This document shows positions 33,974-64,000 of a stretch of DNA of 64,000 nt, piece after piece. Source of the DNA: Astrocystis sublimbata (taxonomy: Eukaryota; Ascomycota; Sordariomycetes; Xylariales; Xylariaceae). A program made the translations under genes and the position numbers. Under the pieces are notes generated by a model. The model was given only the letters and a program-made list of their open reading frames with translations. It was not told where the DNA came from and searched no databases. The DNA lies in contig JAJNNY010000037.1 of NCBI GenBank assembly GCA_022453515.1, positions 299,820-363,819 on the forward strand, written 5' to 3'. The first letter of the stretch is position 1; each line of letters opens with the position of its first letter.

Positions 33974-35525
33974 CTAATAGAAACTTTGGAAATTGGCCAG
34001 TAGTGGGAACTGGGCATGGTGAAATGGGTTGGGTTGATGGAACTGAGGTACTTGGGTGTATCGGTTCACCACGTCCCAGAAATAGGGGATAGTGAATTTG
34101 TTGGCGATGCAGGAGGGCTGGGAAAGGCCTGGGTCCGCACAGGGTCCGCACGCTTGGTAAGCTCCGTGAACGGGCACGGCATGCTGGGGGATGAACTCCT
34201 GCGGAAAAACCATCTGGGGCTCCTCTGGGTCGAAGAACTGGGGTTCCGGCACCGGCATCTTCTCGTTCTGTATCTCCAGAATCTCCTCGTCGTCCAGGTC
34301 CTCGATACTCGAGCAACTGGACGCGAGGGAACCTTCGTCCGAGGAACAGGTGGATTCCACATCTGAGTCCGATCCAGCAGGAGAAAGCGGTGCGTCGTAA
34401 CTCATGCTATCAACAGCATCCTCGTAGGTAACATAATCGGCGGGCTCGGGCGATGCCGGTGGAGTGGGCAACGTTTGTGGCACCGCCGGGATGGTGAGCT
34501 TGGAGCAGGTTAGAATCCTAGTCCTTAGCTCTGGTAACGTAATTCGTTCATCTGGGTTGCGCGTGAAGACGCGTCCCAAGATGTCGTTCAGGTCGTCCGA
34601 CAATGGCAGAATGGTCCTTAGGAAGTCCTGGCTCCTGGTGAATGCGCGGTACGTGGAATCCTCAAACGATGCCTGTCTCCACGGGTTACGGCCGCATGCT
34701 AGGTTTACCAGGATAACACCAAGGCTCCAGACATCATTCGGAGCACAGTAATAGTATGGTCTCCTGGACGAGGGGTCAAGGCATTCTGTAGTGAGTAGCA
34801 ACAGCGTCAGTCCATGTTCCACGAGGACAGCGGGTTGGTATTGGAGGAGGGATCCTACCTGGTGACATGTAGAATGTCGAGCCACAGCCATAGTCCTCGG
34901 ATCGTTCGTTGGCAGTAGCTAGGCCAAAGTCTGCCAACTTCACGGTAGCTCCCTGGTTCGAGACAAGAATGTTCTCCGGCTTCAGGTCCCTGTGGTAAAT
35001 CCCCAATGCATGGCAATGCTCAACGGCGTCCAGGATTTGCAGAAAAACACTCTTTACCATATCGTCCTTGCCGACATATTGGCCACACTCGGTGATGTTG
35101 AAGAACAGGTCTCCCTCCGAACAATACTCAAGAACAACATAGATACAATCGGGGTCATCGACAATCTTGTGCATGGAAACCACATTAGGATGAGCAGAGG
35201 CCTGGTAGTGAAGTCGGAGTTCTCGGTGTTGGAAGGCTAGCTGTCGTCTGTCCAGTGGGGATCCATCGGCGTTAAACTTGCTGAGCGTCTTGACGGCATA
35301 TTGGATCCTGGTGGTGATGTCGACGGCCAGATACACCACGCCATAGGCGCCAGTGCCAATGATCTTTATTAATTGCAAGCTCTCCCCTAGGAACTTGCCC
35401 AACCTCTCCTCTGGCGCAACTGGAGTGTATTGTGCGAATGGTTGTTGCATGTAGACGGGTTTGCCGTCGTCGTATGTTGGAGATGCCGGTGGCGTGTGGT
35501 ATCCGTATACTGCTGCATTATTCAT
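33974..35525 (-). CDS. Ran1/Pat1-Sks1-like serine/threonine protein kinase
   Basis: Two exons: 35525-34859 and 34785-33974, with a 73-bp intron; 492 residues. The start MNNAAVYGYHTPPASPTY is chosen over an upstream in-frame ATG (35606) because the conserved N-terminus starts there. The kinase domain runs from about residue 52: Gly-rich loop IGTGAYGVVY, Lys in YAVKTL, catalytic HRDLKPEN at about 177-184, DFGLA, and the activation segment GSTFYMSPECLDP, whose SPE is completed across the intron. PNDVWSLGVILVNLACGRNPW follows. The C-terminal 190 residues are acidic, then Pro/Gln/His-rich. Relatives are fission yeast Ran1/Pat1 and budding yeast Sks1/Vhs1, acting in meiosis control and nutrient signalling. 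It straddles the left limit of the inverted repeat seen in this window. Confidence 0.92.
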
Positions 35526-38500
35526 GGTATCCTCTGGTCTATGGTCCTTCCAGAAATTCCTGGTTGGCTGGCTACCTTGAAGTGAAAAGGAAACAAGAGC
35601 AGACAATATGTTCTATTGAAAAAACAAATGTCTTCTACCGAATCCACGGCCAAATAAAATCCACGGGAAAGATCCTTGGGTCGAATATCCAGGCGTGTCC
35701 AAGGAAACCAAACGGCTGGGAGTTCAGGGCAACCGGCACGTCGGCGGGAGAAGGTTAGAGGGGAAAGGGGGGGAAGATAACTCAAGGAGCTATCATCGGG
35801 TTCCCAGGCGCAGTCGTGATGGTGCTAAGTGGTGATTATTGTGAGGCCTAAAGGAGCGAGACGTGGTGTGAAGATTGAAGCAACTCCCACACGCTCTGGT
35901 GCGGCTGGTGGGAGACTGATGTAGATATTCAGATATCAATGCTCAGCAGTAGGTACTCCCGATAGAGATACATCGACCAGGGTCTGTCTTGGGTTGTTGA
36001 TGGCTCAACCATTTACCTTGGCTAGCATATTAGCTTGGTGAGCGGGTGAGTCGACAGTCCCGCTACCGTGTGTGTAATAAACATCCACTTATGTATCCAC
36101 ATCCACCCTTGTCTTGCCTTCACATCCGTACGCCTGCGCTATTCTATTATAATACAAAAAAAATCGACGAGCGCTAGCCGTAAAGACGACGTGCGATCCC
36201 ATGGCCTGCTGGCTAGTGTGGGCACGGGTGGACACACTGTTGGGCGCTGCGACTGGAGAAGGAAGAGAAGACTCACTGACTGGCGCAGGGAGACCAGGCG
36301 AGAAATGTCTTAGGATTGGGTCTATGCTTCTGGGGGCACTCCACCTCCGAGGAACGAACGGATGGGCTTGTCAAAGACAGGCAAGGATCGAGGCCGGCGA
36401 GCGTATGTGAGTGAGGATGTTCCTACACCCCGAATTTTGCCTTGCAATCTACGAGCAAGCGAGGCAAGGATCTTGTCTGACACACGAAAATAGCTGGATC
36501 CACTCAGTCACTCGCTGTTATTAGTCGGAGATGCTTATTAGCGCGGTGGAGGCGTGTGCCGATGTGTCCACGAGCCATGTCCAATATTTAATACCACACC
36601 CTGACTAGCAGGGATCTCGAGAAGTCAGACAGGCTCGACAGGCTCGGACTGGCCACTCAGCCCCTGTCAAAGAAACAAGAGCAGGCAGCGGGCGGAGAGT
36701 GGGCGTTGATGTGTGTGGTAGTGTCTGCTACCTACACTAGAAGCGTAGAGAAATGAAGATGGAGTGAAAGAATCAAAAAAGGGGGGGCGTTGCGTGTGAC
36801 CGGTCCATAGAGCTTCCAGGAGCTTTGCCCAGCCAGGACGACCAACGAGTTCAAAGACTTGGTGAGTGGCTGCTGACACTCCACCATCCTTTCACCTTGT
36901 TAGTGCTGTCTTCCTTGTCACTGCCTGCCTGGACGAATCGTCATAATCCACACGCCCGTGACTCGCATAGTTTTACTTCTTTGCCTAGACTGCGATTAGT
37001 GCAGATCTCCGGAGGTCTGTCGGGCGCAATGTAATGGAAAGATGCACCGCCGCGCTCAACTACAGTACTTTGTGCGATAGATATTACGATATCTTTGGCA
37101 CATTTTGCTGGCTTGGAGGAGCGCCATGCCATATAGACCGACTATATGTTGTTCGCACAAGTGTAACAAGTCCAATCAGATCGGTCAGTCCTTGTCAACG
37201 CCACCTGTTGATTGATAATCAATCCAAGGTCATAATTAACCACCAAACAACTGGCTGGGCCTAGTGCTACAATGTTACCGTGGTGCAAGCAACCGGGAAA
37301 AGTATGTGACATGTTTGAAAGAGAGGCGAAAGGACAAGGGCAGAGGAAGTGTCGTTGTGAAATCGCAATCTTGCCCTTCTGCGTACAAGGCTCAAGCCAT
37401 GGATCAGCTATTCGTAACTCTCCAGCCCATATCACTATCACTAGCGACTATCTCTCTCGCTGGGGCGCATGAAGTCGTGTGTTGTGGGACGAGGTTTCTG
37501 AGACTCACATTGTCCTGATCCATCCAATTCCTGTCCCCATCCTAGGACCCGGGACAAAGACCCAGGAGGCCTGTCGAGCTGTCTCGCCTGTTGCAAGATA
37601 CGATGTACGTACGCCTCGTCATCTAGGAATCCGAGCAATCCTAGTGCCTGCAAAGTTCAGATGAGTTCGCTACACTAGTGCCATCTTTCTCAGATCTTCC
37701 TCCATCTACTACTCCGTACACTGGACGGACGGTTATGAGGATCGCCTATCCATCCTTCAGTTTTCAATCCGAGCTAGCACCATAATAACTCATCTTGCCT
37801 GGGGGAGATCCATCGTGAGGCCTACCGTACCAACCGAGCCACTCGAGCCACTCGCTAGAGCAGGTACCCTCGCAGCCATTACCAACTAAGATGTACGCTT
37901 TCCTGCACTATCGGCCATGCGTACCTAACTTACCTGGTCTGGAGCGTCCAATTTCGTGGGAGCGAGCACGCACCGGCGGCACTACTGAGCACACGCAACA
38001 ACGTAGTAGGCAAGCAGGCAAGTAGGTAAATTGGTGTAAATTGGCGATAGCTAGCGCTCTCGGTCAGCGGCAATGAATGAAATGTGCGTCTCGCTTTGAT
38101 GGCGGCCAGAGCCACCTGGAACCCAGCCAGCAGGAACTAGTCAAAGCCTGTGTTTTATTTGCCAATAGTCACAAGCAGCGGCACGTCAGCGCATAGGTAC
38201 GCATAGTATGTAGTATGGGCGGGTATGCCGTCTCGCATACCACATAGTAGGGACTGCGTATCTCACCAATGGCGCCTGCACCAGCCACCCGAGGCCTTGA
38301 TTCGCCGGTGGGAGTCTCAGCTTCCTGGGTTTCTGTCTGGGTTGCAGGTAGGTAAATGCAGGGCTTTCTGCTCTGTGCGGTTGTGTTATGATTACCGCTA
38401 CCTGGCGTTACTGGCGATTGGCCACCGAAGATGAACCACGATGATCTCCGATGTGGTAGGGTGGGAGTGAGAGACAAGTTCAGGTCTTTCGCCCGCGTCG

Positions 38501-39261
38501 CATGCAACAGCCTTGCAAGGAGTCATAAATTGGTTCGACATGACCACGCATCCTGGCGAGAAGTGAGGCTGTCCGAGCCGGGGGGGGCGACCGCCAACCC
38601 GCCGGAGGCACGGATGAAGCGGCCAATGAGCTGCGCAAAGCACTGCCTGCACAGAGCGATTGTGCGGGTCCTTTGACATGAGATCCATCATGGATTCTGA
38701 GATATGGAGAGCTGACCGACGCAAGCGAATGAGTGATGAGTGAATCACACTCTTCCTGCTGTCGCTCTCTGCAATTCCTACGTATGCAATGTGCAATTAA
38801 TCCCTACGATGATACGGTAATGCCAGCCTGCCTGCTTGGAACCGTACAGTAATGAACCACATTATTACTCACATGTGAATGAAACAAAATAAACAAACAG
38901 GACCTCATAATCAAGCCGACGATCCATTCGCTGCCAGCTTGTCGTGAGAAGACCTGATGCAGGTAGGGAAGCTTTTAGGGGCTGTTATCGCCTTATGAGA
39001 CCAGTCCCGGGTGCTGTCTGGGGCCGCCATAGCCAATACTCGCTCGGTGAGGCTGATGGAAGTAGGTAACACATGAATTAATTGTATACATTACATGTTG
39101 GGAAGTATAGGTAGGTGGTAGTAATGAGGCCGACGATGAAGGGTGTGTGAAACTCACCGCCGTTCGCTGGGTGGATAGTCGATCCTTCCGATTACCTACT
39201 CGTTTAGGCTACTCGTATTCGCACTAGCAATTGCCATTGGCCCCAGTCGGCGAGGTCCCCT

Positions 39262-39289
39262 GCCCTGTGCCCTGTGCCCTGTGCCCTGT
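39262..39289 (+). repeat. Heptamer tandem repeat (GCCCTGT)4
   Basis: Four exact tandem copies of GCCCTGT in non-coding DNA; the reverse complement is found at 59531-59558 in the other arm with the same copy number. Confidence 0.9.
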
Positions 39290-41323
39290 GCGCGCTGTAA
39301 CAGTGCTTGTCACCATTTGTTACCAAGCAACTTAACTGCCTACCTCATATGCGTACATGTATCTAGAATACGACAATGTCCCTGTATGGAACATTTTATC
39401 GAACAACCTTAGAGGATCAACCGTCTGTTTCCATCACATACCTCTCTCTAATACATGCATAGTGTAGTAAATGGAGCCGCGCACATACACATCACTGATC
39501 TCCTTACTTGGACTCGTCCAGAACAACATACGTAATGATCCTCTTTACACGACGGTTTGATCCAGAATGTGAATACCTGGTTATCCAGCTCAAGGAAACA
39601 TCCGAGACATTGGCCTCAGCAACGAGGTCGTCCGATATCTCAGACGTTTCTCAAACTGTTTTCCATCGCACTAAAAAGAGAAGAGAAGATCAAACATTCT
39701 CGTCTTATCCCCACAAAGAAAGCCCTGTGCCGCCGCACGCCGAAACTACGATGCTCCATATTGCAGTAGTATACTGATTATCTTATTGTGAGCTTGAACG
39801 CCGAGAAGGCATACACGCATTTACATTTCTGCTGGGGTTAGTACCCAGCCCCCCCAGCATGCGACTGTACATATTCAATGGGCATGAGAGACGACGGTCA
39901 GCGAGTGTCAGCGTTCCGGCGCGACAAGACAAGGTGTACGAGTATTCTCATTGCTGATCTGGCGGACTAATTGCCTTGCATAGTACATGTCAGGTAGCGC
40001 CTTTGAAACTCAGATCGTTTCCCCAGTGAAGAAAAGACCATGATCCCGCGGCAGGGCCGCGATGTGCAGCCATGCCGTCACCGTCACCGTCGAGACCGTC
40101 ACGTTGGTAGTTCTCGCACAAACCGTTGCATACACTATATTAGTCTTTTCAGGATCACCAGAATCGTTCTCAACTGCCTGTTTCGCCTTAGTATTTGACG
40201 TCAAGGGCCCGGTCTGCTGGGAGATCCGACCCTTCGGCAGCAGCTCCACTGCCTAGGGAGTAGGGACCATCTCATTTGTGTGAAACAGCATGGATGAGGT
40301 ACAGCTTCGCTCCTCGTACCATGTCATACTATGTACGAAGGGTACCGCCGGTATCGAGTGAAGCGTAGAAATGTGCCTTCGGTACTTGCCTAGGATGCTA
40401 GGGGTGTGCAGTTTTCCCGCTGATAGGATGCTTAGCAGTCTTCGTTCGATGGCCGATGGCCTCAATATCGCCGAAATTGCTATCACACACACGCACAAAA
40501 TTAAATCCGTATCACCTGCAGCAGGACTTCGTCATCAAAACTGGCCCGGATTGAACTTCAATCTGTACAAACCCAATAAGAGGCGCGCGCCTTGACACTC
40601 TCTTTGATACTACCATCCGAAGGCGAGGAGCATGCCAATTGGACCCAGCGCACCCAATGGCCGGCGATGCTGATGTGAGAATTGGATCTCTCGTGCCGTG
40701 GGAGGCTTACTCCCCAGTACGTAGATCGGGCGATGAAAGGGTAGCATATTCGGCTATCAAACACCTCTGCATGACGTTGATCCTCACCCAAGCGCCGGCT
40801 ATACTCCTCAGTCCTGCCTCAGAACATCACCGCAAAAATGTGTTTTACTTTATCGCCTTTGTCTCTATGAACACGCAGCGACGATCTGCCAATATTGGGA
40901 CAGGCCCCCGACTGGGTGAGACGTTAGGCATGTGACCTGAACCACCCACTAATCTATTCTCAGCCCCAATGCAGCTGTGTCTATCCCCCTTTCCATCCGT
41001 GAGGTTGCGATAACATGATGTGTGAGTGAGGATGGTTTTTTGTTCCAAGTCGATGATCAACCGTCAGAAATGCGATGACGCAAGAACCTGCCTGTTCCGC
41101 CAGCGTCCTGGGGCGCGATCTGACATGTCAGCCTCCTTCGGCCGCCCGCATACTACGCATATTCGCATGCGGCACAGGGGGGGCTGTCGGTGGCAACGAA
41201 AAAAATTATATATCGTGGACTACGACCGGTCGGCAGCAAGATACTTAACCCCACAAGCCACATTTGATTGCAGCCCATCAACTGCCGCGCGCTAGGATGG
41301 CAACCGCTCAGCTTTTGGATGAC

Positions 41324-42019
41324 TTACAGATCTGTATTGTGGATTGATGCTATTCCTGTCTCTTGACTATGGGGGCTTAACAGGAACAATAGCTTCGATG
41401 CCCTTCCAACATTATGCGTATACTTCGCCCAGCGTTTTAGCTGAGAATCATTGAATGTGGCACCCGTCCCTTTCGCATGTTTGATAGCCTCATACTCACC
41501 ATCTTCCTGTAGATCAATCAGTACATACACACCCCCAATCGGTGTGGAGCTATCGTAGACATCGCTTTGAGGGTAAGGTTGTTTTTTTGTGATGATCAAA
41601 AACATCCGCCACTTGTTTGTGCCACTAGTAAATGAATACCGCTGCACCCGTAGATAGAAGGCGTGTTATGGGTTACGGGTACTGACGTCCTGCTGGGACC
41701 GCCAGTCAGCATCTCCCATCCGATGCTGTATGGATGAAGCGGTCACACGACGTTTGCTGAGGTATATTTCACTTGCTCCTCGATAGATATTGCGCAGTAA
41801 TTTTTGCCGGTCGAAACACCATGGGGGGAAACAAAGAGATACAGTCAGAGAAAACACCGCCCGCCTCGGGCCAGCTGAGCAGAACGTCTTGATCAAGTAG
41901 CCTATCATATCAAGTTCATGCTGTGTCTCACGCTTTCCCAATACCCCGCCTCCGGCTACCGGCAGGGACCCTATATATGTTGTTGTCTGGGACGGTAATG
42001 CTCTGGTCCCGAATGCCAT
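41324..42019 (-). CDS. Weak candidate two-exon gene, left-arm copy
   Basis: Exons 42019-41687 and 41641-41324 would give 216 residues. Two long frames in the same phase are separated by a single stop codon, and that stop lies in a 45-bp segment with a good GTCAGT donor and a TGCAG acceptor, which removes it without changing frame. The protein would start MAFGTRALPSQTTTY and includes a basic middle and a strand-rich segment VYVLIDLQEDG. No known domain, signal peptide or membrane segment is seen. The evidence is only open-frame length and one plausible intron, so this may be chance. Confidence 0.25.
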
Positions 42020-45000
42020 GCTGCCGGCTCCCGTAGAGGAGGCTGACGCATGAATATCAACGACAGAAACCGACCTGAGTCGTACTGTGCTGTCGTGTAT
42101 CGGGCCTGCCAATGTATCACTCCCCCAGTGATGCGCTCGGGTCTAGAAACATTGATTTGCCACAAATCGGCTTATTGACTGACAGCCTCGTGACAACGCA
42201 CACGGATCAGCCGGAGTGATGTTAGCCTTTTTGCTGTGAATTACGCCTCAGGTCTTACTTGTGGATGTGCGTGTGTAACCCGTGACTAGGCAACGAGAAA
42301 AGCTTGCGTTTCTTTCTACTAACCACACTAGAAGGATACATCCGGATTGACACGCGGGCGGGAGACGTCGTCAGCAATTGTTGTCGTGGCGTCTTCCTTT
42401 TTTCATCTCATTTCGGAAATAGGGGGTCTTCAGCTACCATACAAGCCCATACGATGCCATGCCTCAAATATCGACTCCGCAAGGGCAGATCCACACTCTG
42501 GCTTCCCGCTGAGCTAACAGCTAGACTAGGTACAAACGTAGATTTACGCATGTAGCGACAGTTCTATCCCTCGATGGCATTGCCTTATTGTTGCGTACTG
42601 CTCACATCGTCAAGTTCAACGGAAAGCAGTGAGACGTGATACTAACAGACAGACAGCTAGTCAGGAGTTTCCACTCTAAAATAGGAAGGTCCTCCCGACA
42701 TCATGTTCTACAATTACAAGACAGCAAATCACTTTGACAAGCTGTACTTGTACATCGTGGCTGACCTCTAAGTATTGGTCACGCACCGCAGCTGAACTAG
42801 ACACTATGATGCGAAAGCCACAACATTTCGAAAAAGGGTCGTTGTTCCATGAAAAAACTTCGTCCGAAGGGATCGCTGTTCTCGGTTTTCGGCCGAGTTT
42901 GTATCTAATTTTAAGGATCTTGGGTCATCTCAACGTCAATGGACTTCATGCGATGTCTCACCCAGCGCTCTTTTGGCGAGACAAACAAAGCCAGACCTCT
43001 TAGCTAAATGCCACATGGCCACAAGTGAGAAAAGCAAACAAGGACAATTTTAATTCCGCGATGATGAAAACGATGATCGTTCTGACGTAAAGGGGTTGGG
43101 TCGGGCGGTCCCTTGGATCAGTAGACGCCTGTACGATACTACACTTAGCTACGCATGTCTAAGCCCAGGCATTGTTTGTGGACAGACGACTCGGGAATAG
43201 AAGTGTGTTATGTGAGACTTTCGAGAATCCCGAAGGAACATGGGATTGTGGCGAAGGATGAAGCCACGAAGCCGCTCAGATAGAAAGCCTGTCAAACTTG
43301 TCAGTTTGTAATGCGCAGTGTCTTTCGGTTCCCGAGATCTCGGTAGAACATGGCGAAATGCTACATTGTCCGACAACGACAATCAACATACTCAGGCGCG
43401 GAAACGGCCAGGTCATCAAATAAACTAAAATAGATATCCCGACGGTATTACCAACGATGCGGTGAAACTGAGGTCAAAAGCTTGTCATGCAAAATGCATT
43501 GGCCAGTAAAAGTGAATCAATTCAAACACCATGTCCGACTGTGGTAATCAAACACAAGTACAAGCCTGTCAATTTTTGAGTAGACAAGCAATCACAAGAC
43601 ATTGCGCCGGCGTACAGAGTCAGGCCGCTGCTATTGCTGTCGGACCATCACTCACACAACAGCTTATATATATCATGAGGTAACATAGATTCAATATACA
43701 ATTCAACAACGTGGCCCATCACGTCAGCTTTGTTGATAATTAGCATTAAACTGTAACCTACGGCATGATATTAAAGGTGTGTTCAATTACCGATGGTTCA
43801 TCATCCTCCTTACCCTAATTCGGGGATGACGAAAACCTATATTGTCGAGATATTGCACTATGTTTATCGGCATGATGTTTCAAGAGCTTAATACACTTGA
43901 AAAACACCATACCAGTAGATACACAAGATGTCACAATCATACAAGGACGTGTTTGAGGCGCAGTTGCTCTTAGGAAACGAGACTGATCACACAGCTTCCG
44001 TATAGCATGACATCACTCATAGCACGAGGTCGCATAATCAGGAAATACAATCACGAAAACCATGATGTCCTCTTCCCCACGGTGACTTAAGAATCCCTTT
44101 CTCACCGAATAGCAAATCGCTCGGCGACACTATAGTCATTGCGCCGGAAGTTCAATCTCGGAGATATCAACATCATCGACTCCATGTAGATGCCGACAAC
44201 AAACACCGACCACAAGCACAAACAAGCACAAAAGGCCACTCAATTGAATCATACAAACTCCTTGATTCAAGAAGCGAGCAGATATTACTCACCTACCTAT
44301 CACAGAATTAATTAAAGCAACAAAGGAGACCCAATGGAGCAAACTCGATCCAGCCATCGGCATCCCACTATCGCCCCCCTTTCCCGAAGATATGGCGTTT
44401 GACTGATAATTGAAAATGAATATCCCACCCGTTCGGCACCGCACCATCTAGGTCAATCTTATGCGATCTTGTCCTTTTGTTATAGTTTGTGTAAGTAACC
44501 CCTCGATAGCTGCCTGACACAAAGCGTTCCAACTCCGCAGTCCGCCTTGTTCCTGTTATCCATCCATACAGCCACTATTCTACTTCCATTCATGCAATCC
44601 AACTACCTCATCTAACCTCCATTATACCTACACACCATCTAACCTGACATGGTAAGAAAGAAAGCCGAGTATCCGGCACCACAGCCCCGGGATCCAACGT
44701 CCGGGAACAGCCGAGCGAGTTGGCCGAAATAACGGCGGTCAAGTCGCGCGATCTGTCCTTTGTTCGAGTGTACGTATGTATTAGTTTAATGACCAGTAGG
44801 CTAATCGACGAGTCTCGCCCCATCTGCCCTTGTGTCTTGCTTGACACAGATAAGTAGTAGTTTCATCCAATACCCATCACTCATCACCATCACCCGGGAA
44901 CAATCCGGCCGCAGCAGCCGAATCTCCATCCCTATCCCTATCCTTTGTTTTCGTCTAGCCGATACTTCATTGCTCATGTTTCTATTTGCCTCCTTAACAC

Positions 45001-45858
45001 TATCACTTTACTGATAGGCTAACCGACGGAATTCCACCTGCTCGCCCTTGTGTCCAACTAGTTGTTGTCAGCTTGTGATGAGCATCCCTTACGTACGGAT
45101 ATCCCGGTGCCACTGTCCTGGGACAGACCATCCCGGCCCCATCCGAGAGAAATGCCGAGTCTCCCTTCCTAAAGCTGGTTGGGTAGGTAAGGGCTAGGTA
45201 ATACAGTACCAGGAACGAATGACGGGCCGACTGGCCGATGACGTGGTAAGGGAGTATCATGTACTACTAAGAAACCACGAGGTGATAGAATTTTCCCCAT
45301 TCTCTGGCGGTCTGGGAAGAGATGTTTCATCAGCTGCTGTATTCTTTCCAGTATGCATTGGACTCATGAGCTCGTTCACATCACCGGATCCAGTCGATAT
45401 GACAGCCTACGACCAGGTAACCCAGAGAGACCACTGTAATAACCTGTGATACCCGATAACCACAACGCTCAGTCAGTATATGATGCATCTCACACTAGAG
45501 TTCGAAGAGAGGGGGGAATTTCAAAACATGCGATGGACACTGGTGTATGATTCCTGTTGATTCCTGCGTCTATCTGATCGCAGTTTATTCCTATTTACTG
45601 ACTCGTTTAATTTATCATTAAGACCATCCCTCGTTGGAAAACCTATTAATAATAATATTAATAGTGTATCTTTGTCAGCTGGCTCTCGCAGCAATCAGTC
45701 TTTTGTAGCTTGCCAATACTTTTGCGCATTCGTCGTGGATTGCGAGATGCAACCCACGTCTTGTCAAATAGTCCAATTAACACAATAGCGCAGTGGCTAA
45801 TCAACTGTAAACCTCTATCCCCAAGTAATCGTAACACCGATGCACTATTTTTCGGTTC

Positions 45859-48661
<2,803 letters not shown>

Positions 48662-50155
48662 CTTGCTTGCTCACTTTGTATTCAGATAATATCTTCAAAA
48701 CGCACACGCGTGTCAACGGCTCCTGGTCTTCCGGTCTTGGGGGGTGGGAGATAGCGTGTTAGCTTGGGGTTCCTTCAAGTCGTCGGGTGCAGGATTCTGG
48801 GCCGAACCGGGAGCGTTCAACGATTCTTTCGCATTACGAACCACGATAGCTATAACTGCGATTGAGCTGCAACGGACCCTGGGGATGGGGTATGGGAGAT
48901 GCTGTGCGAAGCAAGATATAGAAGACTTGTCTGGCCCATAGGATTTGATCGGGTTCGGGTTCGAAGCAGCCGGTTGCAAATCCGGCGCAGGACGAGGTGA
49001 TCAAACTAAGCGACGGCGGCGTACGTAAGTGAGGTGGACGGTAGACGGTGGAAGGGTGGTTGATTCGTGCGGGATCCATGATGGGCTCCTCCATCGTCCA
49101 TCCGGAAAGCGCCTTTTGGATACAGTGTTGGCTGTCGCTAGGAACTGTACGCTACATTATGCCGAGGGGGTGGGGACCCCCCGGACCTGCCCGAAGTCCA
49201 GGGTTAGGACATTAGTCACTAACTTTTAACTAACTAGCTTAGTGACTAAAAGTTAGTCACTAAAGTCAGTGAGGTGACTAACTAAAGTGGATTCCTTAGT
49301 GACTAAGGATTAATCACTAAATAACTTTAGTTATTAAATTAATAACTAAATTAGTTATTTTAATTTTTTCCCCTTAATATTTTTTTAATTTTTAAATAAA
49401 TAATTTTTAAAAATTATTTATTTAAAAATTAAAAAAATATTAAGGGGAAAAAATTAAAATAACTAATTTAGTTATTAATTTAATAACTAAAGTTATTTAG
49501 TGATTAATCCTTAGTCACTAAGGAATCCACTTTAGTTAGTCACCTCACTGACTTTAGTGACTAACTTTTAGTCACTAAGCTAGTTAGTTAAAAGTTAGTG
49601 ACTAATGTCCTAACCCTGGACTTCGGGCAGGTCCGGGGGGTCCCCACCCCCTCGGCATAATGTAGCGTACAGTTCCTAGCGACAGCCAACACTGTATCCA
49701 AAAGGCGCTTTCCGGATGGACGATGGAGGAGCCCATCATGGATCCCGCACGAATCAACCACCCTTCCACCGTCTACCGTCCACCTCACTTACGTACGCCG
49801 CCGTCGCTTAGTTTGATCACCTCGTCCTGCGCCGGATTTGCAACCGGCTGCTTCGAACCCGAACCCGATCAAATCCTATGGGCCAGACAAGTCTTCTATA
49901 TCTTGCTTCGCACAGCATCTCCCATACCCCATCCCCAGGGTCCGTTGCAGCTCAATCGCAGTTATAGCTATCGTGGTTCGTAATGCGAAAGAATCGTTGA
50001 ACGCTCCCGGTTCGGCCCAGAATCCTGCACCCGACGACTTGAAGGAACCCCAAGCTAACACGCTATCTCCCACCCCCCAAGACCGGAAGACCAGGAGCCG
50101 TTGACACGCGTGTGCGTTTTGAAGATATTATCTGAATACAAAGTGAGCAAGCAAG
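48662..50155. other. Centre of the palindrome between two divergent PRP4 copies
   Basis: This symmetric region joins the two PRP4 5' ends, which point away from each other. Outer parts (48662-49170 and its mirror 49647-50155) are ordinary GC-balanced sequence with an 86-codon frame (MEEPIMDPARINHPSTVYRP at the start) on the PRP4 strand, possibly leader sequence. The inner part is the AT-rich foldback sequence described separately. Confidence 0.7.
49175..49642. mobile_element. AT-rich foldback sequence at the palindrome centre, possible MITE-like element
   Basis: From both sides the sequence changes abruptly after a GC-rich block (GGGGACCCCCCGGACC and its complement) to AT-rich DNA. It contains many copies of TTAGTGACTAA or close variants, then TTATTAAATTAATAA-type and finally A/T-only sequence, with the dyad axis inside AATTTTTAAAAATT. 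No transposase frame is present. The layout resembles a non-autonomous foldback or MITE-like element with its centre at the symmetry axis, but because the whole surroundings are mirrored, the inverted structure may belong to the large palindrome alone. Target-site duplications cannot be tested here. Confidence 0.35.
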
Positions 50156-52959
50156 ATGGCGTCGCCATCCAGTTCTGACGAGGGAGAGATCGTGGAGAGC
50201 CGTGGGGGAAACTTGAAGGCAACTTCACTGCGTCAGTTTGATGGACATGGTGTTGACCGTATCGACAGAACTCGAGCTAGAATATCACGCTCAAGATCCC
50301 CAGAGAATGCCAACGGCTACAGTCAACAACGCTCGGACGCGTCGCGCCGAAGCCGCTCGCCCCGCGGCCTGAAGCGGCCGCACGATGATCGTTATCGTGA
50401 TCGTGACGCCCATCGCGGGGGTCGCCTAGATCCCGACCCCCGCCGCTTCCAGGTTCACTACGAGGACTCTCGCGACAGCTACCGCCGGGGTGCGCGTCTT
50501 CCCTACGATGACGAAGATCGCCCGTCGTCTCGCTCATCGACCGCCAATCTCTCCTACGACGACAAAGATCGGGACTATGCCCGCGATCGGCCCATGGATC
50601 GAAGCCAAGATCGCAACTGCTATTCCGATAAGCGACCGAGAAACCGAACTCGATCCCCGTATAGTTCAACACGCGGAGCAGGCCGAGGCCAAGATCGGGA
50701 CCGAGATCGCGGCGAATATGCACGACGAGATATCGATCAAGGTCGGCGAAACGCTAATCGAAACGGCAACGAATTTGTCAGGTCAAGTCACCACCAGAAT
50801 AGCCCACGCCATGTTCGTGACTTCCCAGATACTTCTAAACAAAGTTCTACAGTCAAGGAGACAGGTACTGCGTTATCTAACGGCGATACTGCCGCCAAGG
50901 ACAACACGTCGAAAGCGCCTGAACCCGAGAATGGCGTGGAAGAGGAAACCCCTGTCGATATTGAAGCAGAAATAGAGCGCCGTCGTCGTCGCCGTCAAGA
51001 GATCCTTGCCAAGACGACGCGAGCTACACCTACATCCATGCTGGTGCAAGCCCTACAGACCTCGACCTCCGAAAAAGCCAATGGCTTATCGCCGACTACC
51101 GCTACGCGAGGAAGCACGCCAGTAGCTACTGAAGCCAACACCCCCCAATCCGGTGAGTTCTCATTTGATGGTATTATGAGAATCTGCTCTATTTACTGAC
51201 ACGACATCATAGCTGTTTCGTCTCCCCGTTCACCGAACGGGTTATCACTCGCACCGCTTGATCTTGCTAATGACCGAGAGCTTATCAATACTCATGGCAA
51301 CCAGAGGAACGGCGACGACGAGGACGGGCCCTCTGCGGCTGACTACGACCCAACAGCGGACATGATGGAGGACGAGTTGAGGGATGAGCGTCGACACGGC
51401 CATGTCGGTCCGCACGGGGAGATTCTGCATCCGGAAGAGAAAGCCGAAATACCACCAGTACACGAAGAGCAGAACTCTAAGAAACCAACTGCCGACGACG
51501 ACGACGATTTTGACATGTTTGCTGAGGACTTCGACGAAGACAAATTTGTAGCACCGAAGACAGCCAAGTTTGACGCCACTGCGGATGACCGTAAAGATCC
51601 TGCTGCCCTAGCACTGCCGAACGGAGGAGGCATCCTGGAAGGCGACGACAAAGACGGTTATTACAAGATTCGTATTGGCGAGATCATGAATGGCCGGTAT
51701 CAGGTCCAATCTACACTGGGCAAGGGCATGTTCTCGGGCGTCGTGCGAGCTGTCGACATCACCAACAAGAAGCTTGTCGCTATCAAAATGATGCGAAACA
51801 ACGACGCGCTGAGGAAGGGAGGCTTTACCGAAATCGCAATCTTACAGAAGATCAACGATGCTGATCCTGAGAACCGCAAGCATATCGTAAAGTTTGACCG
51901 TCACTTCGAACACAAAAGCCATCTCTGTCTCGCTTTCGAGAACCTCAGTCTGAATCTGCGCGAGGTGCTGAAGAAGTTCGGCAACAACATTGGTATAAAT
52001 CTGAGTGCGACGCGTGCCTATGCCCATCAAATATTTGTTGCGCTGGCTCACCTTCGCAAGTGCAGTATCGTACATGCCGATCTCAAACCAGACAATATCC
52101 TAGTAAGCCTCTGAATATCCGCCATCCGCCATTGCCAACTAACCTTCTGTGCAGGTCAACGAGACCCGCAACGTGCTCAAACTTTGTGATTTGGGTACAG
52201 CCATTGATCGATCTGATGCTGCGACTGCACACACCGAGATCACGCCCTACCTAGTCAGCCGATTCTATCGCGCACCGGAGATCATTCTAGGGATGCCATA
52301 CGATTATGCCATTGATATGTGGTCCATCGGGTGTACCTTGTACGAGCTGTATACCGGAAAGATCTTGTTCGCGGGCGACAGCAATAATCAGATGCTGAAG
52401 GCCATCATGGAGATTCGAGGCAAGTTCAGCCCGAAGCTGTTCAAACGTGGCGAACTATCACACCAACATTTTGATGAGTTGGGAAACTTTGTCAGCGTCG
52501 AGCAAGATAAGACGCTAGGAAAGGTATGTGCCGTTCTTTTGCCTTTGCTCGTTTCTTCTGTTTGGGAAAAGTCATACGAGAGAGCGTCTTCTTTACTCAT
52601 GAGTTGGCACTACGCCCTCATTTGTCTTGGGTCGCTCTCATCTTGTTGTATTTGATCATCACTTTCTCTCCGCCCACTACCTCTACACACTGCTTGGGTC
52701 AAATTATCTTATTACATGATCGAAACTGACTTGAATAATACAGACAACTGCCCGCACTCTTACCATCGTCAAGCCTACCCGTGACCTGCGTACGCGCTTG
52801 CTGGCTGTCTCCGGCGGTATGACCGATACGGAGTCGAGAGATCTCAATCATTTCATTGACCTCCTGGAACGCTGTCTTGCGCTTAATCCTGACAAGAGAA
52901 TTACCCCCTCGGAAGCCTTGAAGCACCCATTCTTCTTGTCTAGGGGAGCTTTGAGATAA
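50156..52959 (+). CDS. prp4: PRP4-type serine/threonine kinase of the spliceosome, intact copy
   Basis: Four exons: 50156-51152, 51213-52102, 52155-52523 and 52744-52959; total 2472 nt, 823 residues, with all junctions GT..AG and in frame. The first 240 residues are rich in Arg, Ser and Asp (RSRSP, SRSPRG, YRDRD), like an RS domain. ERRRRRRQEILAKT at about residue 290 is a PRP4 family hallmark, followed by acidic stretches. The kinase domain starts near 494: LGKGMFSGVVRAV, VAIK with the catalytic Lys near 524, HADLKPDNIL at 620-629, CDLGTA in place of [28 protein letters not shown], and a final LKHPFFLSRGALR. PRP4 kinases phosphorylate Prp6/Prp31-type tri-snRNP proteins to activate the spliceosome in the nucleus. 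It is normally single-copy; here a mirrored second copy exists. Confidence 0.95.
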
Positions 52960-55900: not shown

Positions 55901-58900
55901 AGATCCTTAAAATTAGATACAAACTCGGCCGAAAACCGAGAACAGCGATCCCTTCGGACGAAGTTTTTTCATGGAACAACGACCCTTTTTCGAAATGTTG
56001 TGGCTTTCGCATCATAGTGTCTAGTTCAGCTGCGGTGCGTGACCAATACTTAGAGGTCAGCCACGATGTACAAGTACAGCTTGTCAAAGTGATTTGCTGT
56101 CTTGTAATTGTAGAACATGATGTCGGGAGGACCTTCCTATTTTAGAGTGGAAACTCCTGACTAGCTGTCTGTCTGTTAGTATCACGTCTCACTGCTTTCC
56201 GTTGAACTTGACGATGTGAGCAGTACGCAACAATAAGGCAATGCCATCGAGGGATAGAACTGTCGCTACATGCGTAAATCTACGTTGTACCTAGTCTAGC
56301 TGTTAGCTCAGCGGGAAGCCAGAGTGTGGATCTGCCCTTGCGGAGTCGATATTTGAGGCATGGCATCGTATGGGCTTGTATGGTAGCTGAAGACCCCCTA
56401 TTTCCGAAATGAGATGAAAAAAGGAAGACGCCACGACAACAATTGCTGACGACGTCTCCCGCCCGCGTGTCAATCCGGATGTATCCTTCTAGTGTGGTTA
56501 GTAGAAAGAAACGCAAGCTTTTCTCGTTGCCTAGTCACGGGTTACACACGCACATCCACAAGTAAGACCTGAGGCGTAATTCACAGCAAAAAGGCTAACA
56601 TCACTCCGGCTGATCCGTGTGCGTTGTCACGAGGCTGTCAGTCAATAAGCCGATTTGTGGCAAATCAATGTTTCTAGACCCGAGCGCATCACTGGGGGAG
56701 TGATACATTGGCAGGCCCGATACACGACAGCACAGTACGACTCAGGTCGGTTTCTGTCGTTGATATTCATGCGTCAGCCTCCTCTACGGGAGCCGGCAGC
56801 ATGGCATTCGGGACCAGAGCATTACCGTCCCAGACAACAACATATATAGGGTCCCTGCCGGTAGCCGGAGGCGGGGTATTGGGAAAGCGTGAGACACAGC
56901 ATGAACTTGATATGATAGGCTACTTGATCAAGACGTTCTGCTCAGCTGGCCCGAGGCGGGCGGTGTTTTCTCTGACTGTATCTCTTTGTTTCCCCCCATG
57001 GTGTTTCGACCGGCAAAAATTACTGCGCAATATCTATCGAGGAGCAAGTGAAATATACCTCAGCAAACGTCGTGTGACCGCTTCATCCATACAGCATCGG
57101 ATGGGAGATGCTGACTGGCGGTCCCAGCAGGACGTCAGTACCCGTAACCCATAACACGCCTTCTATCTACGGGTGCAGCGGTATTCATTTACTAGTGGCA
57201 CAAACAAGTGGCGGATGTTTTTGATCATCACAAAAAAACAACCTTACCCTCAAAGCGATGTCTACGATAGCTCCACACCGATTGGGGGTGTGTATGTACT
57301 GATTGATCTACAGGAAGATGGTGAGTATGAGGCTATCAAACATGCGAAAGGGACGGGTGCCACATTCAATGATTCTCAGCTAAAACGCTGGGCGAAGTAT
57401 ACGCATAATGTTGGAAGGGCATCGAAGCTATTGTTCCTGTTAAGCCCCCATAGTCAAGAGACAGGAATAGCATCAATCCACAATACAGATCTGTAAGTCA
57501 TCCAAAAGCTGAGCGGTTGCCATCCTAGCGCGCGGCAGTTGATGGGCTGCAATCAAATGTGGCTTGTGGGGTTAAGTATCTTGCTGCCGACCGGTCGTAG
57601 TCCACGATATATAATTTTTTTCGTTGCCACCGACAGCCCCCCCTGTGCCGCATGCGAATATGCGTAGTATGCGGGCGGCCGAAGGAGGCTGACATGTCAG
57701 ATCGCGCCCCAGGACGCTGGCGGAACAGGCAGGTTCTTGCGTCATCGCATTTCTGACGGTTGATCATCGACTTGGAACAAAAAACCATCCTCACTCACAC
57801 ATCATGTTATCGCAACCTCACGGATGGAAAGGGGGATAGACACAGCTGCATTGGGGCTGAGAATAGATTAGTGGGTGGTTCAGGTCACATGCCTAACGTC
57901 TCACCCAGTCGGGGGCCTGTCCCAATATTGGCAGATCGTCGCTGCGTGTTCATAGAGACAAAGGCGATAAAGTAAAACACATTTTTGCGGTGATGTTCTG
58001 AGGCAGGACTGAGGAGTATAGCCGGCGCTTGGGTGAGGATCAACGTCATGCAGAGGTGTTTGATAGCCGAATATGCTACCCTTTCATCGCCCGATCTACG
58101 TACTGGGGAGTAAGCCTCCCACGGCACGAGAGATCCAATTCTCACATCAGCATCGCCGGCCATTGGGTGCGCTGGGTCCAATTGGCATGCTCCTCGCCTT
58201 CGGATGGTAGTATCAAAGAGAGTGTCAAGGCGCGCGCCTCTTATTGGGTTTGTACAGATTGAAGTTCAATCCGGGCCAGTTTTGATGACGAAGTCCTGCT
58301 GCAGGTGATACGGATTTAATTTTGTGCGTGTGTGTGATAGCAATTTCGGCGATATTGAGGCCATCGGCCATCGAACGAAGACTGCTAAGCATCCTATCAG
58401 CGGGAAAACTGCACACCCCTAGCATCCTAGGCAAGTACCGAAGGCACATTTCTACGCTTCACTCGATACCGGCGGTACCCTTCGTACATAGTATGACATG
58501 GTACGAGGAGCGAAGCTGTACCTCATCCATGCTGTTTCACACAAATGAGATGGTCCCTACTCCCTAGGCAGTGGAGCTGCTGCCGAAGGGTCGGATCTCC
58601 CAGCAGACCGGGCCCTTGACGTCAAATACTAAGGCGAAACAGGCAGTTGAGAACGATTCTGGTGATCCTGAAAAGACTAATATAGTGTATGCAACGGTTT
58701 GTGCGAGAACTACCAACGTGACGGTCTCGACGGTGACGGTGACGGCATGGCTGCACATCGCGGCCCTGCCGCGGGATCATGGTCTTTTCTTCACTGGGGA
58801 AACGATCTGAGTTTCAAAGGCGCTACCTGACATGTACTATGCAAGGCAATTAGTCCGCCAGATCAGCAATGAGAATACTCGTACACCTTGTCTTGTCGCG

Positions 58901-61900
58901 CCGGAACGCTGACACTCGCTGACCGTCGTCTCTCATGCCCATTGAATATGTACAGTCGCATGCTGGGGGGGCTGGGTACTAACCCCAGCAGAAATGTAAA
59001 TGCGTGTATGCCTTCTCGGCGTTCAAGCTCACAATAAGATAATCAGTATACTACTGCAATATGGAGCATCGTAGTTTCGGCGTGCGGCGGCACAGGGCTT
59101 TCTTTGTGGGGATAAGACGAGAATGTTTGATCTTCTCTTCTCTTTTTAGTGCGATGGAAAACAGTTTGAGAAACGTCTGAGATATCGGACGACCTCGTTG
59201 CTGAGGCCAATGTCTCGGATGTTTCCTTGAGCTGGATAACCAGGTATTCACATTCTGGATCAAACCGTCGTGTAAAGAGGATCATTACGTATGTTGTTCT
59301 GGACGAGTCCAAGTAAGGAGATCAGTGATGTGTATGTGCGCGGCTCCATTTACTACACTATGCATGTATTAGAGAGAGGTATGTGATGGAAACAGACGGT
59401 TGATCCTCTAAGGTTGTTCGATAAAATGTTCCATACAGGGACATTGTCGTATTCTAGATACATGTACGCATATGAGGTAGGCAGTTAAGTTGCTTGGTAA
59501 CAAATGGTGACAAGCACTGTTACAGCGCGCACAGGGCACAGGGCACAGGGCACAGGGCAGGGGACCTCGCCGACTGGGGCCAATGGCAATTGCTAGTGCG
59601 AATACGAGTAGCCTAAACGAGTAGGTAATCGGAAGGATCGACTATCCACCCAGCGAACGGCGGTGAGTTTCACACACCCTTCATCGTCGGCCTCATTACT
59701 ACCACCTACCTATACTTCCCAACATGTAATGTATACAATTAATTCATGTGTTACCTACTTCCATCAGCCTCACCGAGCGAGTATTGGCTATGGCGGCCCC
59801 AGACAGCACCCGGGACTGGTCTCATAAGGCGATAACAGCCCCTAAAAGCTTCCCTACCTGCATCAGGTCTTCTCACGACAAGCTGGCAGCGAATGGATCG
59901 TCGGCTTGATTATGAGGTCCTGTTTGTTTATTTTGTTTCATTCACATGTGAGTAATAATGTGGTTCATTACTGTACGGTTCCAAGCAGGCAGGCTGGCAT
60001 TACCGTATCATCGTAGGGATTAATTGCACATTGCATACGTAGGAATTGCAGAGAGCGACAGCAGGAAGAGTGTGATTCACTCATCACTCATTCGCTTGCG
60101 TCGGTCAGCTCTCCATATCTCAGAATCCATGATGGATCTCATGTCAAAGGACCCGCACAATCGCTCTGTGCAGGCAGTGCTTTGCGCAGCTCATTGGCCG
60201 CTTCATCCGTGCCTCCGGCGGGTTGGCGGTCGCCCCCCCCGGCTCGGACAGCCTCACTTCTCGCCAGGATGCGTGGTCATGTCGAACCAATTTATGACTC
60301 CTTGCAAGGCTGTTGCATGCGACGCGGGCGAAAGACCTGAACTTGTCTCTCACTCCCACCCTACCACATCGGAGATCATCGTGGTTCATCTTCGGTGGCC
60401 AATCGCCAGTAACGCCAGGTAGCGGTAATCATAACACAACCGCACAGAGCAGAAAGCCCTGCATTTACCTACCTGCAACCCAGACAGAAACCCAGGAAGC
60501 TGAGACTCCCACCGGCGAATCAAGGCCTCGGGTGGCTGGTGCAGGCGCCATTGGTGAGATACGCAGTCCCTACTATGTGGTATGCGAGACGGCATACCCG
60601 CCCATACTACATACTATGCGTACCTATGCGCTGACGTGCCGCTGCTTGTGACTATTGGCAAATAAAACACAGGCTTTGACTAGTTCCTGCTGGCTGGGTT
60701 CCAGGTGGCTCTGGCCGCCATCAAAGCGAGACGCACATTTCATTCATTGCCGCTGACCGAGAGCGCTAGCTATCGCCAATTTACACCAATTTACCTACTT
60801 GCCTGCTTGCCTACTACGTTGTTGCGTGTGCTCAGTAGTGCCGCCGGTGCGTGCTCGCTCCCACGAAATTGGACGCTCCAGACCAGGTAAGTTAGGTACG
60901 CATGGCCGATAGTGCAGGAAAGCGTACATCTTAGTTGGTAATGGCTGCGAGGGTACCTGCTCTAGCGAGTGGCTCGAGTGGCTCGGTTGGTACGGTAGGC
61001 CTCACGATGGATCTCCCCCAGGCAAGATGAGTTATTATGGTGCTAGCTCGGATTGAAAACTGAAGGATGGATAGGCGATCCTCATAACCGTCCGTCCAGT
61101 GTACGGAGTAGTAGATGGAGGAAGATCTGAGAAAGATGGCACTAGTGTAGCGAACTCATCTGAACTTTGCAGGCACTAGGATTGCTCGGATTCCTAGATG
61201 ACGAGGCGTACGTACATCGTATCTTGCAACAGGCGAGACAGCTCGACAGGCCTCCTGGGTCTTTGTCCCGGGTCCTAGGATGGGGACAGGAATTGGATGG
61301 ATCAGGACAATGTGAGTCTCAGAAACCTCGTCCCACAACACACGACTTCATGCGCCCCAGCGAGAGAGATAGTCGCTAGTGATAGTGATATGGGCTGGAG
61401 AGTTACGAATAGCTGATCCATGGCTTGAGCCTTGTACGCAGAAGGGCAAGATTGCGATTTCACAACGACACTTCCTCTGCCCTTGTCCTTTCGCCTCTCT
61501 TTCAAACATGTCACATACTTTTCCCGGTTGCTTGCACCACGGTAACATTGTAGCACTAGGCCAGCCAGTTGTTTGGTGGTTAATTATGACCTTGGATTGA
61601 TTATCAATCAACAGGTGGCGTTGACAAGGACTGACCGATCTGATTGGACTTGTTACACTTGTGCGAACAACATATAGTCGGTCTATATGGCATGGCGCTC
61701 CTCCAAGCCAGCAAAATGTGCCAAAGATATCGTAATATCTATCGCACAAAGTACTGTAGTTGAGCGCGGCGGTGCATCTTTCCATTACATTGCGCCCGAC
61801 AGACCTCCGGAGATCTGCACTAATCGCAGTCTAGGCAAAGAAGTAAAACTATGCGAGTCACGGGCGTGTGGATTATGACGATTCGTCCAGGCAGGCAGTG

Positions 61901-63293
61901 ACAAGGAGGACAGCACTAACAAGGTGAAAGGATGGTGGAGTGTCAGCAGCCACTCACCAAGTCTTTGAACTCGTTGGTCGTCCTGGCTGGGCAAAGCTCC
62001 TGGAAGCTCTATGGACCGGTCACACGCAACGCCCCCCCTTTTTTGATTCTTTCACTCCATCTTCATTTCTCTACGCTTCTAGTGTAGGTAGCAGACACTA
62101 CCACACACATCAACGCCCACTCTCCGCCCGCTGCCTGCTCTTGTTTCTTTGACAGGGGCTGAGTGGCCAGTCCGAGCCTGTCGAGCCTGTCTGACTTCTC
62201 GAGATCCCTGCTAGTCAGGGTGTGGTATTAAATATTGGACATGGCTCGTGGACACATCGGCACACGCCTCCACCGCGCTAATAAGCATCTCCGACTAATA
62301 ACAGCGAGTGACTGAGTGGATCCAGCTATTTTCGTGTGTCAGACAAGATCCTTGCCTCGCTTGCTCGTAGATTGCAAGGCAAAATTCGGGGTGTAGGAAC
62401 ATCCTCACTCACATACGCTCGCCGGCCTCGATCCTTGCCTGTCTTTGACAAGCCCATCCGTTCGTTCCTCGGAGGTGGAGTGCCCCCAGAAGCATAGACC
62501 CAATCCTAAGACATTTCTCGCCTGGTCTCCCTGCGCCAGTCAGTGAGTCTTCTCTTCCTTCTCCAGTCGCAGCGCCCAACAGTGTGTCCACCCGTGCCCA
62601 CACTAGCCAGCAGGCCATGGGATCGCACGTCGTCTTTACGGCTAGCGCTCGTCGATTTTTTTTGTATTATAATAGAATAGCGCAGGCGTACGGATGTGAA
62701 GGCAAGACAAGGGTGGATGTGGATACATAAGTGGATGTTTATTACACACACGGTAGCGGGACTGTCGACTCACCCGCTCACCAAGCTAATATGCTAGCCA
62801 AGGTAAATGGTTGAGCCATCAACAACCCAAGACAGACCCTGGTCGATGTATCTCTATCGGGAGTACCTACTGCTGAGCATTGATATCTGAATATCTACAT
62901 CAGTCTCCCACCAGCCGCACCAGAGCGTGTGGGAGTTGCTTCAATCTTCACACCACGTCTCGCTCCTTTAGGCCTCACAATAATCACCACTTAGCACCAT
63001 CACGACTGCGCCTGGGAACCCGATGATAGCTCCTTGAGTTATCTTCCCCCCCTTTCCCCTCTAACCTTCTCCCGCCGACGTGCCGGTTGCCCTGAACTCC
63101 CAGCCGTTTGGTTTCCTTGGACACGCCTGGATATTCGACCCAAGGATCTTTCCCGTGGATTTTATTTGGCCGTGGATTCGGTAGAAGACATTTGTTTTTT
63201 CAATAGAACATATTGTCTGCTCTTGTTTCCTTTTCACTTCAAGGTAGCCAGCCAACCAGGAATTTCTGGAAGGACCATAGACCAGAGGATACC
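52960..63293. other. Gene-poor part of the right arm
   Basis: Mirror of 35526-45858, with the same content: one weak two-exon candidate (56801-57496), the heptamer repeat at 59531-59558, and otherwise no supported gene. The last kilobase should hold the promoter of the right-arm copy of the Ran1-like kinase. Confidence 0.4.
56801..57496 (+). CDS. Weak candidate two-exon gene, right-arm copy
   Basis: Exons 56801-57133 and 57179-57496, 216 residues, mirror of 41324-42019. The 45-bp putative intron starts GTCAGT, ends TGCAG, and contains the only in-frame stop. No recognised domain. It adds no independent evidence, because the arm is a copy. Confidence 0.25.
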
Positions 63294-64000
63294 ATGAATA
63301 ATGCAGCAGTATACGGATACCACACGCCACCGGCATCTCCAACATACGACGACGGCAAACCCGTCTACATGCAACAACCATTCGCACAATACACTCCAGT
63401 TGCGCCAGAGGAGAGGTTGGGCAAGTTCCTAGGGGAGAGCTTGCAATTAATAAAGATCATTGGCACTGGCGCCTATGGCGTGGTGTATCTGGCCGTCGAC
63501 ATCACCACCAGGATCCAATATGCCGTCAAGACGCTCAGCAAGTTTAACGCCGATGGATCCCCACTGGACAGACGACAGCTAGCCTTCCAACACCGAGAAC
63601 TCCGACTTCACTACCAGGCCTCTGCTCATCCTAATGTGGTTTCCATGCACAAGATTGTCGATGACCCCGATTGTATCTATGTTGTTCTTGAGTATTGTTC
63701 GGAGGGAGACCTGTTCTTCAACATCACCGAGTGTGGCCAATATGTCGGCAAGGACGATATGGTAAAGAGTGTTTTTCTGCAAATCCTGGACGCCGTTGAG
63801 CATTGCCATGCATTGGGGATTTACCACAGGGACCTGAAGCCGGAGAACATTCTTGTCTCGAACCAGGGAGCTACCGTGAAGTTGGCAGACTTTGGCCTAG
63901 CTACTGCCAACGAACGATCCGAGGACTATGGCTGTGGCTCGACATTCTACATGTCACCAGGTAGGATCCCTCCTCCAATACCAACCCGCTGTCCTCGTGG
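63294..64000 (+). CDS. Ran1/Sks1-like protein kinase, right-arm copy, cut by window end
   Basis: Exon 1 (63294-63960, 667 nt) is complete and encodes the N-terminus and the kinase domain as far as the activation segment (GSTFYMSP), including IGTGAYGVVY, HRDLKPEN and DFGLA. The 5' splice site GTAGGA follows at 63961, and the window ends in the intron. As far as compared it is identical to the left-arm gene (33974-35525). Whether exon 2 is present beyond 64000 shows whether the duplication includes the whole gene. Confidence 0.93.
   Translation, partial: MNNAAVYGYHTPPASPTYDDGKPVYMQQPFAQYTPVAPEERLGKFLGESLQLIKIIGTGAYGVVYLAVDITTRIQYAVKTLSKFNADGSPLDRRQLAFQHRELRLHYQASAHPNVVSMHKIVDDPDCIYVVLEYCSEGDLFFNITECGQYVGKDDMVKSVFLQILDAVEHCHALGIYHRDLKPENILVSNQGATVKLADFGLATANERSEDYGCGSTFYMSPGRIPPPIPTRCPR

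Follow-up and report, generated by a model that had tools for sequence, protein, structure and literature searches.

The 64,000 nucleotides analysed here (the window) form the end of contig JAJNNY010000037.1 of assembly GCA_022453515.1 from Astrocystis sublimbata, a fungus of the Xylariaceae (Xylariales), and almost half of them take part in one giant palindrome. The question raised by this locus is whether such a structure belongs to a chromosome of the fungus or was created when its DNA was sequenced and assembled. The contig, referred to below as C121, is 363,819 bp long, the window corresponds to its positions 299820-363819, and the assembly comprises 42,594,959 bp in 189 contigs. We conclude that the palindrome is very probably a sequencing or assembly artefact, in which a foldback at a hairpin was written into the end of C121, and not an isochromosome-like duplication. 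An intact junction on another contig, contig ends that coincide, the absence of a far junction and recurrence at other contig ends all favour an artefact. The two arms are as follows:

34819..49408, + strand: left arm (U), on our best reading single-copy chromosome sequence; its 14.59 kb recur as the end of a second contig, C163
49409..64000, - strand: right arm (U'), which mirrors U up to the last base of C121 and is spurious on the same reading

A preliminary description of this DNA had proposed a giant spacer-less palindrome about 49408/49409, and alignment of the arms confirmed it: reverse-complement arms of 14,590 and 14,592 bases meet at this axis with a 0-base spacer. The same description had noticed no substitution between the arms, which needs a small correction: the alignment contains 1 substitution (36911/61908) and 6 single-base indels in 14,594 columns, all 6 indels falling within homopolymer runs. 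A match like this over 14.6 kb goes far beyond what chance would give. Window position 64000 is the final base of C121 and the mirror extends exactly that far; it has no far junction and stops where the contig does.

The final 1.5 kb ahead of the axis is present at 100% identity at three places in the assembly, namely on both arms of C121 and at C163:147947-149455. Contig C163 is 162,537 bp long and its terminal 14,591 bases are arm U, such that the end of C163 and the end of the mirrored arm of C121 share one base, window position 34819. Past the axis, C163 runs on into unique sequence that is not the mirror of the arm; this side, B, carries genes for an HlyIII-family protein and a TFIIIC-subunit-like protein. 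The chromosome is thereby shown to run from A (C121 as far as 34818) through U (34819-49408) into B (C163 past the axis). According to the preliminary description, the palindrome would be an artefact if, in another assembly, the axis were followed by unrelated unique sequence, and C163 provides such a continuation within the same assembly. We propose that the mirror in C121 and contig C163 end at one base because the assembler stopped both where foldback support gave out. TTAGGG arrays, sought in view of a possible telomere at the axis, were not found for C121 among the 100 of 145 places listed, which covered contigs up to C156 and thus not C163.

Comparison of the three copies of the arm revealed 9 variable columns, consisting of 1 substitution and 8 indels of one base each, the indels lying within runs 2 to 6 bases long. 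Over 14.59 kb, the left and right arms differ at 7 sites, the left arm and C163 at 7, and the right arm and C163 at 4; at 5 sites it is the left arm that disagrees with the other two copies. Hence, the mirror arms are no more alike or different than the overlap of two contigs. Judged by their type and number, the differences look like long-read consensus errors and not like divergence.

The axis lies within a miniature inverted-repeat transposable element (MITE), which is cut in C121 and whole in C163:

49191..49198, + strand: left copy of the 8-bp target-site duplication CCGAAGTC, the right copy being present solely past the axis in C163
49199..49408, + strand: left 210 bp of the hAT-like MITE, with terminal repeat CAGGGTTAGGA; the axis cuts the element here
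49398..49419, no strand: 22 bp centred on the axis; the counterpart 22 bp in the unmirrored C163 are likewise a perfect palindrome
49409..49618, - strand: mirror of the left half of the MITE, image of 49199..49408

The complete element in C163 is 432 bp long with a GC content of 23%, and the axis corresponds to its base 210. It starts with CAGGGTTAGGA, finishes with TCCTAACCCTG, has terminal inverted repeats of 24 bp at 95.8%, and is bordered on both sides by CCGAAGTC (8/8 target duplication). With its 8-bp duplication, CAGGG-type terminal repeats, AT-richness, non-coding sequence and ability to form a hairpin it matches hAT-type MITEs, and the target duplication of 8 bp and the terminus CAGGG are our grounds for calling it hAT-like; it was matched to no transposase or named family, no transposase or repeat-library search having been made, and a literature search found no paper on the MITEs of this fungus. 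Two other members of the family are flanked by target duplications as well, one on C179 by CTTGGGAA (8/8) and one on C13 by GCGGTGTG/GCAGTGTG (7/8). The terminal motif CAGGGTTAGGA has 7 matches in the assembly, 4 of which are the copies on C121 and C163. Outside C121 and C163, members or ends of the family were seen at C179:654334-655042, C13:120055-120935 and C128:588-608; those on C179 and C13 are longer, and their middle parts are not AT-rich.

Folded as DNA, the element in C163 forms a long imperfect hairpin at -80.3 kcal/mol, against -31.0 +/- 4.0 kcal/mol for 100 shuffled versions. Over the 44,591 bp examined in C163, the 22-bp palindrome at the axis is the sole perfect palindrome of at least 16 bp, and an equally long one occurred anywhere in 4 of 200 block-shuffled versions. 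A whole transposon copy together with its target duplication spans the junction between U and B, and therefore U-B is the older arrangement, from which the mirror in C121 derived by fold-back at the hairpin apex. The preliminary description had offered two readings of the palindrome. One of these, an assembly product of a foldback read, is supported by the continuity of C163 and its intact MITE. The other was a recent inverted duplication in vivo; for a real isochromosome-like end no evidence was found in the assembled sequence, read depth not having been available.

The arm also carries protein kinase genes, one of which spans its outer edge:

33974..35525, - strand: Ran1-like protein kinase gene, whole in C121 and spanning the outer edge of the arm at 34819
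45862..48661, - strand: Prp4 splicing kinase gene, left-arm copy, in which the kinase frame is disrupted by the loss of one base at 46525
50156..52956, + strand: Prp4 kinase gene, mirrored copy, with the frame intact at the corresponding place
63294..64000, + strand: mirrored 5' part of the Ran1-like kinase gene, truncated by the contig end

A deposited Astrocystis sublimbata protein matches the Ran1-like kinase (492 amino acids, one intron removed) at 100% over 492 residues. The kinase gene is whole across 34819, and thus the join between A and U is native as well; in C163 the gene is truncated by the contig end, like the mirrored copy. The earlier view that both kinases are doubled consequently holds for Prp4, which lies entirely within the arm, but not for the Ran1-like kinase, whose gene straddles 34819 and whose second copy is truncated. 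The deletion at 46525 affects the Prp4 kinase domain and is absent from the right arm and from C163. The best match of the Prp4 query from the window was the deposited Astrocystis sublimbata protein, at 98% identity, and this protein was seen to lack the activation-loop segment corresponding to the region of 46525. The deposited gene model was probably bent around the error at this position. Between the kinase genes, about 9 kb of the arm (37000-45800) are without long open frames; the only two frames scanned from this region, 41324-41665 and 41666-42142, gave no Pfam match.

Gene order in relatives was compared using the locus tags and contigs of protein matches, of which up to 120 were listed per query. 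The tags of Prp4 and the TFIIIC subunit are three apart in both comparable species, Xylaria multiplex (g8588/g8591) and Xylaria grammica (g5826/g5823), and among the matches listed the two proteins come from equal-sized contigs in 11 of the 12 named organisms present in both lists. For the pair formed by Prp4 and the Ran1-like kinase, the matches listed include three species with consecutive tags (Xylaria flabelliformis, Xylaria curta and Truncatella angustata) and a fourth, Anthostomella pinea, in which the tags are near each other. As far as can be judged from tags and contig sizes, this gene order supports the path from C121 through the arm into C163 (A-U-B) with one copy of the arm. A native duplicated gene pair was also considered and was rejected in view of the A-U-B order in relatives together with differences at the level of consensus errors.

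Other contig ends show a similar architecture. They were sampled in two ways: contig C132 was met in the TTAGGG search, and is thus not a random choice, and the first 150 bases of each of five contigs (C1, C57, C121, C163 and C179) were searched for nearby inverted copies. In C132 (296,260 bp) the TTAGGG arrays are symmetric about 277,747, the surrounding 800 bases are palindromic, and the final 200 bases recur inverted at 259224-259423, so that the mirror reaches the exact contig end. Judged from the bases around the axis and the last 200 bases, this terminal foldback measures about 18.5 kb. The arrays enclosed by it are interstitial and lie in AT-rich sequence, with a spacing that resembles the end of C15. 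For three of the five contig starts an inverted copy lies close by, at 2871-3021 in C57, 1583-1733 in C163 and 4059-4211 in C179, and these are probable further terminal foldbacks. Contigs C112 and C163 begin at one base and at 832-902 are exact reverse complements of each other. In its sequence, this pair of starts bears the same signature as the ends of C121 and C163, with a loop in this case. On the chromosome, C121, C163 and C112 are probably consecutive, split at two foldback sites. Together these results suggest that other contig breaks of the assembly are foldback sites too.

The palindrome could have arisen as follows. During library preparation or sequencing, a strand would have suffered a break or nick at the apex of the MITE hairpin, or been copied there, and would then have snapped back and been extended with its own complement as template; the products would be palindromic molecules or reads of the type U-U'. 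At the axis the assembler would then have faced an ambiguity between U-B and U-U' and handled U as a repeat, so that A-U-U' was put out as C121 and B-U' as C163. Both contigs would stop where foldback support ends, as a graph-edge boundary would give.

Reads of this type are familiar from several sources. Missed adapters yield palindromic reads. Among the artefacts reported to impede long contigs are missed-adapter and strand-jump reads of PacBio sequencing (PMC6304105). Foldback artefacts are reported to account for about 0.55-0.6% of genomic reads from nanopore sequencing, to recur at the same sites, and to be attributed to library preparation (PMC12870357). The palindrome of C121 resembles the foldback reads reported there in being near perfect, in having little or no spacer, in the recurrence at particular sites and in the normal uninterrupted sequence that covers the same place; unlike them, it is known from the end of an assembled, polished contig and not from a read. 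In whole-genome amplification, palindromic chimeras are described that form when the polymerase extends along its own product, resulting in inverted repeats that spoil assembly (PMC6218980). On the reading proposed above, the present case would share such self-copied inverted repeats, whether or not its DNA was amplified.

Several observations weigh against an artefact or against parts of the evidence for it. What we have analysed is assembled sequence, in which neither foldback molecules nor an in vitro origin was observed, and a hairpin apex is equally the place where foldback in vivo would begin. Three PacBio data sets contained virtually no foldbacks in the account of the same nanopore study (PMC12870357); if the present assembly is based on PacBio reads, another route such as missed adapters or amplification is therefore needed. 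A literature search found no genome paper, platform or assembler for this assembly. Among the contig starts, those of C1 and C121 (2/5 tested) had no inverted copy, and the matches of C57 and C179 span just about 150 bp each. As to gene order, Xylaria arbuscula is the exception to the pairing of Prp4 with the TFIIIC subunit, the TFIIIC-subunit and Prp4 rows coming from contigs of 6,035 and 1,556,727 bp; the TFIIIC subunit and the Ran1-like kinase are on different contigs in Xylariaceae sp. FL1272; and three species among the matches listed, Neopestalotiopsis clavispora, Verticillium dahliae and Lasiodiplodia mahajangana, have the Ran1-like kinase and Prp4 on different contigs and with tags that are far apart.

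Just one rival explanation carries weight, a real inverted duplication in a minority of nuclei of the sequenced culture. Here, a break near the MITE would be followed by hairpin foldback and fill-in to a hairpin-capped end, which on replication would become a palindromic chromosome terminus. In yeast without Mre11 or Sae2 function, breaks near natural inverted repeats are reported to drive foldback inverted duplication (PMC10622511), and the palindrome of C121 resembles these cases in having a short native inverted repeat precisely at its axis. However, the outcome reported for the yeast events is dicentric breakage, capture of a telomere or loss of a centromere (PMC10622511), whereas the mirror in C121 stops at the contig end with no new junction, centromere loss or captured telomere and with nothing assembled beyond it, and the intact junction is present within the same assembly. 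Moreover, the same architecture is found at other contig ends, and many independent rearrangements in one culture are hardly to be expected. We therefore regard this possibility as unlikely. AT-rich hairpin elements like this MITE might also be real, recurrent sites of foldback in living nuclei of this fungus; palindromic chromosome ends would then persist in a minority of cases and have been caught by the assembly at many contig ends. We give this idea a similarly small chance.

Considered alone, the sequence of C121 would agree with a fixed giant palindrome, either an isochromosome-like end or a segmental inverted duplication, C163 then being a second locus with an extra copy of the arm. This would require three copies of U with differences at consensus level and two contigs that end at one base by accident. 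In addition, the MITE is whole with its target duplication in C163 alone, and the gene order of relatives fits a single copy in A-U-B. Such a palindrome is very improbable, and a fixed isochromosome-like end in particular was rejected because of the uninterrupted junction in C163 with an intact transposon copy across it. Both joins occur in one assembly, as they would in a heterokaryon with two nuclear haplotypes, A-U-B and A-U-U'. There are, however, no haplotype-like substitutions, the three copies differing by 1 substitution and 8 homopolymer indels; the mirror lacks a far end, and other contig ends display the same pattern. Haplotypes of a heterokaryon were rejected on the ground that the differences are at the level of consensus errors, and their probability is next to nil.

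If the palindrome is an artefact, as we think very probable, the deposited assembly carries a false inverted duplication of 14.6 kb, and with it a duplicated splicing kinase gene whose left copy is frameshifted. The combination of a mirror that runs to the contig end, a terminus shared to the base with a second contig, and a native inverted repeat at the axis would provide a test for such artefacts that does not depend on reads. The pattern is recurrent, and other 'inverted duplications' at contig ends of this assembly are therefore to be distrusted. For the biology of the fungus the locus would then be an ordinary one, a single locus counted twice.

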